Shown here piece after piece: positions 23,647 to 28,280 of a DNA stretch of 48,891 bases. The stretch is from NCBI GenBank assembly GCA_007134775.1, contig SLKC01000032.1:1-48891 (forward strand). The letters run 5' to 3'. Made by a program: the position numbers and the translations under genes. This stretch comes from Ectothiorhodospiraceae bacterium. Lineage in GTDB: Bacteria > Pseudomonadota > Gammaproteobacteria > XJ16 > Halofilaceae. Position 1 is the first letter of the stretch, and each line of letters starts with the position of its first letter. The notes beneath the pieces were generated by a model. It did no database searches. It saw nothing but the letters and a program-made list of their open reading frames with translations, and was not told where the DNA came from.

Positions 23647-24228
23647 GTGCCCCCGATGATCCTGAAGACCGATCCGGGCGGGCGCCCCATCCGCTGGATC
23701 GATGTGCGAACGGCTGCCGCCTACCTGCTGCGCGCGGAGGTGGCGTGGTCGTCGACGGCAACAGCGATCACCCTGCGCGGTGGCATCTCCGCGTGGACCG
23801 GGCGCCAGAGTCGCCTCGACATCCCCTCGATCCTCGCCGTGCTCGGCGCCCGTTCCGCCCATATCGATTCGACCGTGCCGCGCCTCACCAACGACGCCCT
23901 CTTTCTCCGTGACCGCTATCTCTGCTGCTACTGCGGCAACCACTTCGCCGACAGTCGGGCGCTGCTGACCCGCGACCACGTCATGCCATTGTCGCGCGGC
24001 GGAAGCGACGCCTGGGAGAACGTCGTCACGAGCTGCCGGTCGTGCAATCAGAAAAAGGACGATCGGCTGGTCGAGGAGTGTGTGCTCGAGATGCGCTACA
24101 TCCCCTATACGCCGTCGCGGGCCGAGGCGATGATCCTGGAGAACCGGCGTATCCTGGCCGATCAGATGGATTACCTGATGCAGCAGGTCCCCCGCCGCGA
24201 CCGCGCTCGCCGCGAAGCCGTAGCCTGA
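23647..24228 (+). CDS. HNH endonuclease family protein
   Basis: A 193-residue protein. The C-terminal half is a zinc-ribbon HNH domain: CCYCG, then RDHVMPLSRGGSDAWENVV and CRSCNQKKDD, giving the two CxxC pairs and the His-Asn-His/Lys core. The N-terminal half starts with ILKTDPGGRPIRWI, like the stand-alone HNH proteins widespread in gammaproteobacteria whose target is unknown. GTG 23647 has AGAGG 9 bases upstream; ATG 23656 is an alternative. There is no phage or restriction neighbour, so a host role such as DNA repair or anti-invader nicking is only a guess. Confidence 0.85.
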   Translation: MPPMILKTDPGGRPIRWIDVRTAAAYLLRAEVAWSSTATAITLRGGISAWTGRQSRLDIPSILAVLGARSAHIDSTVPRLTNDALFLRDRYLCCYCGNHFADSRALLTRDHVMPLSRGGSDAWENVVTSCRSCNQKKDDRLVEECVLEMRYIPYTPSRAEAMILENRRILADQMDYLMQQVPRRDRARREAVA

Positions 24229-24355
24229 GCCGCCGCCGAATCGGCGCCACCGCCGCCGGCGGCGACCCTGGCGCGCATGGGCATGTCGTCATTGTGCTAT
24301 CGTCTGCCCCCGGCCATTGGACCGTTTCCGGTGATTGAGGGGGAAGTAGCGCGCC

Positions 24356-25870
24356 GTGGAGCAGCTCAAGGCTTTCTATGCGACCTTCCACGAAGCGGCG
24401 CGCAACCTGCTTCCGATCATCCTCGTCGTCGGCGTCTTCCAGCTCCTCGTGCTGCGCCAGATCCCTGATGACTGGCTCAGCATCACCATCGGCCTGCTCA
24501 TCGTGCTGCTCGGTGTCGCGCTGTTCCTGCAAGGGCTGGAACTGGGCGTCTTCCCCATCGGCAAGAACCTCTCCAACGAGTTCGCGCGCCAGGGCTCACT
24601 GCCTCTGCTGATGGTCTTCGGCTTCTGCCTCGGCTTCTCCGCGGTCATCGCGGAGCCAGCGCTGATCGCGGTGGCCGAACAGGCCGAGATCGTCAGCGAG
24701 GGGCAGATCAACGGCTTCGTCCTGCGCCTGCTGGTCGCGACCTCCGTGGGCGGGGTGGTCGCTCTTGGGGTCGTGCGCATCATTCTTGGTCAGCCGCTGC
24801 ACTGGTACATGATCATCGGCTACATCACGGTCGTGCTCGTCACCTTCTTCTCTCCGGAGGAGATCGTGGGCCTCGCCTACGACTCCGGTGGAGTGACCAC
24901 GAACATCGTCACTGTGCCGCTGATCGCGGCGCTCGGCCTGGGGCTGGCCGCTGCCCTGCGCGGGCGCGATGCCCTGATCCACGGGTTCGGCTTGGTCGCG
25001 CTCGCGGTGATGGTGCCGATGATCGTCGTGCAGCTCTACGGCATCGCCGTGTTCACACTGGGCGAGCCCTTTGACCCCGGGGGGAACGGGGATGTGGTCG
25101 ACCCGGCCGGTGAGACAGAGGTCGTGACACCGACTGCGGGCAGCGTGGTGCTCGGCATGCTCACGGAACTGCTGGTCATGTTCCGCGATGTCCTGCCGAT
25201 CATCGCCGTCGTTCTCTTCTTCCAGTACGGCGTCCTGCGCCGCCGGCTGCCCAACGAGCATCGCCTGGTATTCGGTTTCCTCATGGTCATCGTCGGCCTC
25301 TACGCCTTCGTCGTCGGCCTGCGCATGGGGCTGTTCCCGATCGGCGAACGCATGGCGGAGCAGCTGATCACGATGGACACACTGCTGTTCGTCTATCTCT
25401 TCGCCTTCGCCATCGGTTTTGCCACGACGATGGCCGAGCCCGCGCTGATCGCGATCGGGCGCAAGGCCCAGGAGGCGGCCCGCGGCCGTCTCAATGCGAA
25501 CGTCATCCGCGTGCTGGTGGCCCTCGGCGTCGCCATCGGGATTACCATCGGCGTCCATCGGATCATCTCAGGCGACTCCATCCACCACTACGTGATCGCC
25601 GGCTATACCCTGGTGATCATCCTGACGGCGCTGTCGCCGCGCTATATCGTCGCCCTCGCCTTCGACCTCGGCGGCGTGACGACCTCGGAGGTGACCGTGC
25701 CGCTGGTGACCGCCCTCGGCCTCGGCCTGGCCACGCACATCGAGGGGCGGACCGCACTGATCGACGGCTTCGGCCTGATCGCGTTCGCATCGATCTTTCC
25801 GATCGTGACAGTCATGCTCTATGCTGTGTTGGTTGAGTTCGCCGCGCGCTGGCGGCAGGAGGCGCCATGA
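24356..25870 (+). CDS. DUF1538 integral membrane protein with two tandem copies (putative transporter)
   Basis: A 504-residue polytopic membrane protein made of two DUF1538 units. Four motifs recur at a constant offset of 261 residues: LPII at 19 and 280, FPIG at 66 and 327, AEPAL at 99 and 360, and GGVTT followed by VTVPL at 178 and 439. Each half has about 6-7 hydrophobic segments, and an acidic, glycine-rich loop (about 236-262) joins them. Such an internal duplication is typical of transporters. The substrate is unknown. The start is GTG 24356 with GAGGGGGA upstream. The stop overlaps the PII-like gene by four bases, and a CBS protein follows, so its activity is probably regulated by them. 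Confidence 0.85.
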   Translation: MEQLKAFYATFHEAARNLLPIILVVGVFQLLVLRQIPDDWLSITIGLLIVLLGVALFLQGLELGVFPIGKNLSNEFARQGSLPLLMVFGFCLGFSAVIAEPALIAVAEQAEIVSEGQINGFVLRLLVATSVGGVVALGVVRIILGQPLHWYMIIGYITVVLVTFFSPEEIVGLAYDSGGVTTNIVTVPLIAALGLGLAAALRGRDALIHGFGLVALAVMVPMIVVQLYGIAVFTLGEPFDPGGNGDVVDPAGETEVVTPTAGSVVLGMLTELLVMFRDVLPIIAVVLFFQYGVLRRRLPNEHRLVFGFLMVIVGLYAFVVGLRMGLFPIGERMAEQLITMDTLLFVYLFAFAIGFATTMAEPALIAIGRKAQEAARGRLNANVIRVLVALGVAIGITIGVHRIISGDSIHHYVIAGYTLVIILTALSPRYIVALAFDLGGVTTSEVTVPLVTALGLGLATHIEGRTALIDGFGLIAFASIFPIVTVMLYAVLVEFAARWRQEAP

Positions 25871-26214
25871 AATTCGCCGCACTGGTGGTTATCGTCGCCG
25901 ACGACCTTGAGGATCGCGCCATCGATTCGGCCAAACGGGCGGGCGCGGCGGGGGTCACGATCGTCGATGCTAAGGGGCTGGGCGCGCAGGAGAAGAAGAC
26001 GTTCTTCGGCCTTACCTACGAGGGGAGCCAGACGGTGCTGCTGTTCGTGCTGGAGAAGAAGCTCTCCGTGCATGTCCTCAAGCGGCTCAACCGCGACCTC
26101 GACCTCGCGAATACCAGCAAGGGTGTGGCCTTCACGCTGCCGCTGGAGCACGTCGCCGGCATCGACCCGGAGCAGATCCAGCAATTCGAGGATCGGATCC
26201 GCGACGAGATCTGA
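25867..26214 (+). CDS. PII-like signalling protein
   Basis: A 115-residue protein with the beta-alpha-beta pattern of PII: KFAALVVIVADDLEDRAIDS (helix after strand 1), GVTIVDAKGLG, then a short T-loop-like segment (QEKKTFFGLTYEGS), and after strand 3 a helix and GVAFTLPLEHVAGI, a plausible B-loop region. It is not canonical GlnB/GlnK: the PII signature and usual uridylylation loop are not present in normal form. Its ATG overlaps the stop of the DUF1538 gene (ATGA). By analogy with SbtB and other PII-like proteins coded beside transporters, it may bind a nucleotide and gate the partner. The ligand is unknown. Confidence 0.8.
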   Translation: MKFAALVVIVADDLEDRAIDSAKRAGAAGVTIVDAKGLGAQEKKTFFGLTYEGSQTVLLFVLEKKLSVHVLKRLNRDLDLANTSKGVAFTLPLEHVAGIDPEQIQQFEDRIRDEI

Positions 26215-26243
26215 CACCCGCTACGCACCGACCGGAGACTCCG

Positions 26244-26633
26244 ATGCTTGTCCGGGACATCATGCAGAGCGACGTCAAGACGATATCCGCCTTCGCCACG
26301 CTGCGTGAGGCGATGCGCCAGATGAGCGAGAACGGCGTGCGCGCGCTCGTGGTCGAGAAGAAGGAGCCGTCCGACGCCTACGGCATCCTCACCTACGGCA
26401 ACATCCTGCGCACCATTTTTGCCGAAGAGGGCGATATCGATCTGATCAACGTCTACGACGTCTGCGCGAAACCAGCGATCGCCGTCGCCCCGGGCCTCGA
26501 TGTCCGCCATGCCGCGGCGATGATGGTGCGCCACGATTTCCGCCGCGTGCTCGTGCTCGAGGGTAACGAGCTGGTGGGGATCCTTACGATGAACGACATC
26601 ATGGGCCCCGTGCTCCGCATGGCGGACGAATAG
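26244..26633 (+). CDS. CBS-pair protein
   Basis: A 129-residue protein made of two CBS repeats and little else: repeat 1 (about residues 1-60, MLVRDIMQSDVKTISAFATLREA in two parts, ending GILTYGNIL) and repeat 2 (about 68-127, PAIAVAPGLDVRHAAAMM, ending GILTMNDIMGP). Paired CBS domains form a Bateman module that binds AMP, ATP or S-adenosylmethionine. It begins 29 bases after the PII-like gene in the same direction. With that gene it makes two small-molecule sensor modules beside one membrane protein. Confidence 0.92.
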   Translation: MLVRDIMQSDVKTISAFATLREAMRQMSENGVRALVVEKKEPSDAYGILTYGNILRTIFAEEGDIDLINVYDVCAKPAIAVAPGLDVRHAAAMMVRHDFRRVLVLEGNELVGILTMNDIMGPVLRMADE

Positions 26634-26731: not shown

Positions 26732-27313
26732 GTGGGCGCCACTACCTCCGAAGGACCGCAGCTGCGCTCCTCACTCGGCCACGATCTGCGCGCGCTGCGG
26801 CGGCTGCGGCGGATGACCATTGCCGAACTCGCTGCGGCCACGAACCGATCGGTCGGTTTCATCAGTCAGGTCGAGCGGGGACTTTCGCAGATCTCGCTGC
26901 GCGATCTGCAGCGTCTGACCGAGGTGCTCGATGTGCCGCTGAGTTGGTTCTTTATCAACGAACCGGCACCGCCGGGCGAGCGCGGTTATATCGTGCGCTC
27001 GGCGGATCGGCGCCAGGTGGGCAGTCGTGAGGGCGGGCTCATCGAAGAGCTGCTGTCGCCCGACCTCGGCGGCACGTTCGAACTCTTCCGCAGCGAGTTC
27101 GAGCCGGGTGCGGAGATGCCGGCCCCCCAGCGCCGTGAAACCGAGGAGGCCGGTTTCGTCATCGAGGGCGAACTCGAACTCTGGCTCGATGAGCGCCATT
27201 TCCATCTGGTTGCCGGGGACAGCTTCCGGTTCCACGGCGAGGCCTACCGCTGGCGCAACCCGGGCGAGCGCTCCGCAGTCGTCCTTTGGGTGATTGCACC
27301 GCCGGTCTATTGA
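26732..27313 (+). CDS. XRE-family regulator with C-terminal cupin domain
   Basis: A 193-residue regulator. The N-terminal XRE helix-turn-helix covers about residues 14-70 (DLRALRRLRRMTIAELAAAT then SVGFISQVERGLSQISLRDL). The C-terminal cupin_2 barrel includes FELFRSEFEPGAEMP, GFVIEGELELWLD and AGDSFRFHGEAYRWRN, where a small molecule would bind. HTH-cupin proteins of this type often regulate amino acid, polyamine or nitrogen catabolism. The start is GTG 26732 with GAAGGGAG about 8 bases upstream. It follows the CBS gene after 98 bases; a regulatory link to that operon is possible but not shown. Confidence 0.88.
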   Translation: MGATTSEGPQLRSSLGHDLRALRRLRRMTIAELAAATNRSVGFISQVERGLSQISLRDLQRLTEVLDVPLSWFFINEPAPPGERGYIVRSADRRQVGSREGGLIEELLSPDLGGTFELFRSEFEPGAEMPAPQRRETEEAGFVIEGELELWLDERHFHLVAGDSFRFHGEAYRWRNPGERSAVVLWVIAPPVY

Positions 27314-27440
27314 TCGCCGCGCGCACGCGGCCGTCCGCCGGTCTGCACCGGGCCAGGGGGTGGACCGACAATCCCAAGGGTGCAATCCTGCCCTCTGTAG
27401 GCCCGCAATGCGGGTCTGCCATCCGACTGGAGCCCCTGCC

Positions 27441-28280
27441 ATGAGCCGCTACCGCCCGCTCGCTGGACTGTTCCTCGCAGCCGCCCTGATCCTCGCCAGT
27501 ACGAGCGCATCCGCGCGCGATCTCGGTGTCGACGAGGATGAACTCGTACAGGTGGAGATCGCCACGCTCGGGGTGGCGGCCCACGGCGCACCGGTCGTGC
27601 TCCTGCGCCAGCCCGAGGCCCGCGACGTGATCCCCATCATCATCGGCCCCGCAGAGGCCGAAGCGATCATGCGTGCACGCGAGGGCGTCGAGCCGCCGCG
27701 GCCGATGACCCACGATCTGTTCGGGGATGTCCTCTCCGTGCTCGATGCAACGCTCACCCGGGTGATTGTCGATGATCTTGTCGACAATACGTTCCTCGGC
27801 ATGCTTGAACTCGAGGTCGAAGGTCGGGAGGGGCCGCTGCGCATCGACAGTCGCCCCAGCGATGCGATGGCCCTCGCCATTCGTGCGGGAGCGACCATCC
27901 ACGTCGCTCCGCCCGTGCTCGAGGCGGCCGAGTTCATCGAGTACGAGGGCCTGGATGACCAGGTCGTCACGGCGGTCGGCATCACGGTGGGCGACGTCAC
28001 GTCCGACTTGCGCCAGGCGCTGGAGCTGCCCGACCGAGAGGGCGTGCTGGTCAACAGCGTCAGTGGTCCGGCCCGTGACGAGGGGCTGGAGCCGGGTGCG
28101 CTCATCCTTGAAGTCAATGGCGAGGTGCCCGCATCGCCCCTCGATTTCCTCGATCTGATCCATGATACGCCTGAGGGCGAGGACACGCGGATACGGTTCT
28201 GGCAGGAGGGCGAAGAGCGCGAGATCGAGGTGCCGACGGATGTGCCTGACCCGGATGATGACGAGGGGATTGCGCTGTAG
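27441..28280 (+). CDS. Secreted bifunctional-nuclease (BFN/DUF151) domain protein with PDZ domain
   Basis: A 279-residue protein with a Sec signal peptide (about residues 1-26, cleavage near ASTSASA). A BFN/DUF151 domain follows (about 35-170), with VVLLRQPEARDVIPIIIGPAEA split around the core, HDLFGDVLSVLDATLTRVIV and IDSRPSDAMALAIRAGATI. A PDZ-like region sits at about 190-265, with LVNSVSGPARDEGLEPGALI. BFN domains are normally cytosolic, with nuclease activity reported for plant members. A leader sequence and a PDZ domain make this architecture suited to the periplasm and peptide recognition. The start is ATG 27441 with GGAG about 9 bases upstream. The acidic C-terminus (DPDDDEG) is marked. 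Confidence 0.82.
   Translation: MSRYRPLAGLFLAAALILASTSASARDLGVDEDELVQVEIATLGVAAHGAPVVLLRQPEARDVIPIIIGPAEAEAIMRAREGVEPPRPMTHDLFGDVLSVLDATLTRVIVDDLVDNTFLGMLELEVEGREGPLRIDSRPSDAMALAIRAGATIHVAPPVLEAAEFIEYEGLDDQVVTAVGITVGDVTSDLRQALELPDREGVLVNSVSGPARDEGLEPGALILEVNGEVPASPLDFLDLIHDTPEGEDTRIRFWQEGEEREIEVPTDVPDPDDDEGIAL

Follow-up and report, generated by a model that had tools for sequence, protein, structure and literature searches.

PII proteins are the textbook example of nitrogen, carbon and energy sensors; the transporters that they are known to target carry nutrients, e.g. ammonium, bicarbonate and urea. In the AmtB-GlnK system a PII-family trimer controls a membrane transporter from the cytoplasm, while the PII-like CPII of Thiomonas has been solved with AMP/ADP and with bicarbonate. 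In SbtA-SbtB, a gene for a transporter with two homologous halves adjoins one for a protein of PII fold (PMC8352866). The membrane protein family DUF1538 has a single characterised pair, UmpAB of Halomonas zhaodongensis; UmpA and UmpB are two homologous seven-helix proteins that form a hetero-dimer, which has been measured to be a pH-dependent Na+(Li+,K+)/H+ antiporter: with it, E. coli KNabc tolerates salt and alkali again, and antiport is seen in vesicles (PMC5484666). The clone that was active in E. coli is not reported to carry a PII or CBS gene (PMC5484666), which implies that such partners are dispensable for the basic activity; this sole characterised DUF1538 pair was studied without the PII and CBS regulators considered below. 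PII or CBS partners are mentioned neither there nor in a further paper on DUF1538 (PMC13255231), nor is PII mentioned in two papers on cable bacteria that cite UmpAB, and the PII/CBS control half of the operon appears to be undescribed in the open-access literature that was searched.

The window, as the whole 48,891-nucleotide stretch analysed here is called, carries three genes arranged head to tail on the + strand: a fused umpAB-like gene with a GTG start and two tandem DUF1538 repeats (504 aa, 24356-25870; Pfam and ORF check), a gene for a PII-like protein (115 aa, 25867-26214) and one for a stand-alone CBS pair (129 aa, 26244-26633, detected by Pfam). The DUF1538 and PII-like genes overlap by exactly 4 bases at an ATGA junction, and exactly 29 bases separate the PII-like gene from the CBS pair; the ORF sizes, overlap and gap given in an earlier note on this DNA were all correct when the coordinates were rechecked. 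A purine-rich stretch resembling a ribosome-binding site, placed approximately and by eye at 24338-24346 on the same strand, lies 5' of the GTG start. An Rfam search around the operon gave no RNA element and no riboswitch, and a promoter and terminator scan gave no signal exceeding chance.

The 504-residue protein is alike to UmpAB in family, in having two homologous halves of seven helices each, and in the halophilic or alkaliphilic hosts; the difference is that UmpAB is encoded by two genes and the window has one fused gene. Pfam DUF1538 (PF07556) is found in it twice (E 1.9e-131, 436 bits against a cut-off of 22.6), the UmpA-like first repeat lying at 24416-25045 and the UmpB-like second at 25199-25828, both on the + strand. 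Among NCBIfam models, UmpA and UmpB come nearest, yet the protein falls below their equivalog cut-offs (446 against 490 bits for NF041627, 404 against 500 for NF041628), so that it is described here as putatively working like UmpAB and is not filed as an equivalog. Four motifs recur at an offset of exactly 261 residues (FPIG at 66 and 327, AEP at 99 and 360, GGVTT at 178 and 439, GFGL at 210 and 471); at that offset 98 of 243 positions are identical, while 200 shuffles over offsets 240-280 never exceeded 39, which bears out the duplication and the offset that had been claimed for this protein, and a profile-profile comparison matches the two halves to each other at E 2.9e-81. The fused single-chain form is the less common one in the survey of the window's class, where most relatives have split umpA and umpB genes; it is the rule among the named loci described below, which were retrieved with a fused query.

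In the predicted model of the protein (pLDDT 86, pTM 0.87), each half consists of seven helices. In each half, helices are interrupted at the invariant A-E-P and around the G-G-V-T-T stretch, i.e. at A99-E100-P101 and around D176/S177-GGVTT in the first repeat and at A360-E361-P362 and around D437/G439-GVTT in the second. Residues E100, D176, E361 and D437 are invariant in 42 sequences and are located at these breaks in the model; they are likely the natural candidates for cation or proton binding. No solved structure was found by sequence search, and Foldseek with the model returned nothing below E 0.001, an absence that is no proof of a new fold; the best match on a second look, to helical oxidase segments at Z 6.6, was judged meaningless. 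Kinship with the CaCA exchangers was considered because of the GTT-AEP motif and because the fold weakly overlaps that of NCX_Mj (189 residues at 6.5 A, Z 5.9); hhalign of DUF1538 with CaCA (PF01699) gave a probability of 0.1%, with a CaCA set that was small and contained fragments. The putative antiporter may have a fold of which no relative has been solved.

The three genes stay together in relatives: DUF1538, PII-like and CBS genes lie side by side in 74 of the 80 loci that were retrieved within the window's class. The other six comprise three at a contig edge (L076, L092, L105), two with PII and no CBS gene (L109, L112) and one lone DUF1538 (L095). A further sample of 80 named loci covered Gammaproteobacteria, Campylobacterota and Actinomycetota; all three genes are present in 60 of these, PII is fused to DUF1538 with no CBS gene in 15, and 5 are cut by contig ends. 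Twenty loci were taken from the phylum's other classes; PII is present in 20/20 of them and CBS in 14/20. Across 274 genomes, the PII-like subfamily was found in 89 of the 90 with DUF1538 and in 2 of the 184 without it (Fisher p 7e-69, a value inflated by kinship); in both of the latter genomes the contig that bears the PII gene is short, and the CBS gene still adjoins PII there. PII is thus the constant partner of DUF1538 and CBS the usual one, and the grouping is a real, widespread and conserved bacterial operon. The order PII, CBS, DUF1538 is also found (L111, L187), and five loci have an extra PII gene upstream (L113, L114, L115, L138, L151). No relatives were found in viral contigs searched with the PII protein.

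The members of another DUF1538 clade are longer, and their genes are followed downstream by two PII-like genes, with no CBS gene (L109, L112, L196, L199, L200, L203-L205). Two genomes of the same genus (G001, G002) have neither DUF1538 nor the PII-like protein, which indicates that the operon has been gained or lost within the genus.

The PII-like protein matches Pfam P-II (PF00543) at E 7.9e-8, with 33 bits against a 25-bit cut-off. Its model (pLDDT 82.1) has the ferredoxin-like PII fold that had been proposed for it, with Z 11.7 to SbtB (81 residues, 2.4 A), 11.2 to GlnK1 and 10.9 to CPII, and the closest folds include SbtB with AMP or cAMP bound. The fold and the conserved glycines are retained. 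The T-loop region (about residues 37-52) is short and non-canonical, with a shared motif of its own, KTFFGLTYEG in the window type, and the canonical T-loop signature is indeed missing, as had been remarked. A profile alignment indicates that the canonical GDG(K/R)IF has become xxG(I/V)AF and the C-terminal basic region G(I/V); the basic residues that we take to bind the ATP phosphates in canonical GlnB/GlnK (K90, R101 and R103 in E. coli numbering) are replaced, which makes canonical Mg-ATP/2-oxoglutarate sensing unlikely. By analogy with SbtB or CPII, a site for AMP, ADP or cAMP is possible. No diadenylate cyclase domain was found in any of 56 genomes (the window's own and 55 relatives), so that c-di-AMP is an unlikely ligand here and adenylates or cAMP are likelier; since one class III cyclase is present in the genome, cAMP is possible.

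Compared with SbtA-SbtB, the locus has the same adjoining transporter and PII-like genes, the PII fold and the two homologous transporter halves, but the transporter here, as in the loci that were fetched, is DUF1538 instead of SbtA, and a CBS pair has been added. Some SbtB proteins carry a C-terminal CGPxGC motif, which is absent from the window protein (it has no cysteine). With AmtB-GlnK it would share the overall plan, differing in the partner family, in having lost the canonical T-loop and the residues for the ATP phosphates, and in the CBS partner. The model has its fold in common with CPII, while partner and sequence differ.

The 129 AA protein contains two Pfam CBS domains (PF00571; E 2.6e-24, 85.7 bits against a cut-off of 24). 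Of their (S/T)xxD motifs, the second (TMND) keeps the aspartate and the first (TYGN) has asparagine, as in the consensus of the fused-type relatives. The best solved sequence relative is CBS-CP12 (PDB 5nmu; E 3.3e-18), which is likewise a CBS pair, as are other stand-alone members; unlike CBS-CP12, the window protein lacks a CP12 domain and is linked to a putative antiporter.

In 15 Campylobacterota loci (L165, L166, L168, L170, L174, L177, L178, L179, L183, L184, L186 and L189-L192), from Sulfurimonas, Sulfuricurvum, Arcobacter-type and Thiovulum hosts, DUF1538-DUF1538-PII is encoded in one frame as a protein of about 650 residues with the PII domain at its C-terminus and no CBS gene nearby; in the three fusion proteins submitted to Pfam, both DUF1538 and P-II were detected in each. 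That this fusion recurs in so many genomes is the strongest evidence obtained for direct physical control: it makes a physical coupling of the two proteins likely. It also demands that the membrane protein's C-terminus face the compartment in which the PII domain acts, which is presumably the cytoplasm. Such a natural fusion is also a ready single-chain protein for structural and transport work.

From the sequences, the models and the analogies above, the reading preferred here, at a probability of about 0.7, is that of a regulated monovalent-cation/proton antiporter operon with gating by a PII-like trimer and a second adenylate input from the CBS pair. The 504-residue protein would be a single-chain UmpA-UmpB of the inner membrane, exchanging Na+ (Li+, K+) against H+, with E100, D176, E361 and D437 as its likely cation/proton sites. 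The PII-like trimer would dock on the cytoplasmic face via its short T-loop and close or open the antiporter in response to its ligand, an adenine nucleotide (AMP/ADP/ATP or cAMP) being the likeliest, while the target of the CBS pair would be either the PII protein or the transporter. We infer both nucleotide binding by the two small proteins and the gating itself; the physical coupling is made likely by the fusions. What switches the antiporter is probably a signal of the cell's energy state. The earlier note had proposed a transport unit with two sensor subunits and an unknown substrate; a transport unit that has PII-like and CBS proteins as accessories stands, while "unknown substrate" gives way to the antiport measured for the DUF1538 relative UmpAB (PMC5484666). 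The note would have been refuted had structure prediction failed to bear out the PII fold, or had the three genes not stayed together in related genomes; both points were checked, and its claim withstood them.

That a PII-family protein directly controls a class of monovalent-cation/H+ antiporters, being fused to it in some Campylobacterota, with CBS as a second adenylate input and ion and pH balance coupled to energy, is a generalisation that we favour by a little over even odds. If a PII-like protein does steer a family of antiporters, the reach of PII regulation would widen to the homeostasis of sodium, potassium and pH.

Three further genomic contexts of the PII subfamily lie outside DUF1538 loci. 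A PII paralogue sits about 60 bases upstream of a gene for a KefB/C-type cation/proton antiporter, a Na_H_Exchanger plus TrkA protein (L195, 7033-9412); in Thioalkalivibrio, two PII-like genes adjoin that of a ligand-gated ion channel which includes a solute-binding domain, and a betaine-type transporter is encoded nearby (L194, 4851-8433); and in the window's own genome a second PII-like copy is found upstream of cydAB (L193 on contig C163, 7054-7449). Two of the three, L195 and L194, fit ion homeostasis, while the cydAB context holds no cation transporter. When relatives of the L195 paralogue were surveyed outside DUF1538 loci, a strong score was obtained only for the own-genome extra copy.

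It is unlikely that the membrane protein instead moves inorganic carbon, such as bicarbonate in symport or antiport with Na+ or H+, and that the PII-like protein is a carbon sensor of the SbtB/CPII type. SbtB and CPII are indeed among the closest folds of the PII model, and RuBisCO is found in 67 of the 90 DUF1538 genomes of the class sample as against 64 of the 184 without DUF1538 (odds ratio 5.5, p 7e-10, not corrected for kinship); the window's own genome, however, has no RuBisCO match. Many hosts are chemolithoautotrophs (Thioalkalivibrio, Sulfurimonas), but Halomonas, Marinobacter, Vibrio, Oceanospirillum, Dietzia and Arthrobacter are carriers too, and these are mainly heterotrophic (lifestyles that we take from general knowledge). 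For UmpAB, moreover, antiport was measured directly (PMC5484666).

A purely constitutive role of the PII-like protein, as an assembly or stability subunit with no ligand-driven switch, seems if anything a shade less probable than carbon transport. The loss of the canonical ATP-phosphate residues and the fusion of PII to the transporter in 15 loci would suit such a subunit, but the PII fold and its conserved glycines have been kept, UmpAB is active in E. coli without a PII protein from its own operon, and the usual company of a CBS pair suggests sensing. Still more improbable, to the point that we give it little weight, is that the PII-like and CBS genes are merely co-transcribed with the antiporter and act elsewhere; the absence of CBS from some lineages is in its favour, while the natural DUF1538-PII fusions and the linkage across phyla speak against it, as does the rearranged order of L111 and L187, where the pairing survives.

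The preferred reading, a regulated antiporter operon, concerns the three genes as a unit, since the flanking genes were tested and found unconserved: those encoding the HNH, XRE-cupin and BFN-PDZ proteins were tried as operon members and ruled out, conservation being absent in relatives. The HNH-endonuclease-type protein lies directly upstream of the operon in the window, at 23647-24228, and is not kept there in relatives. At 27294-28280 of the window, a bifunctional-nuclease domain is joined to a PDZ domain in a protein whose start, by eye, looks like a signal peptide.
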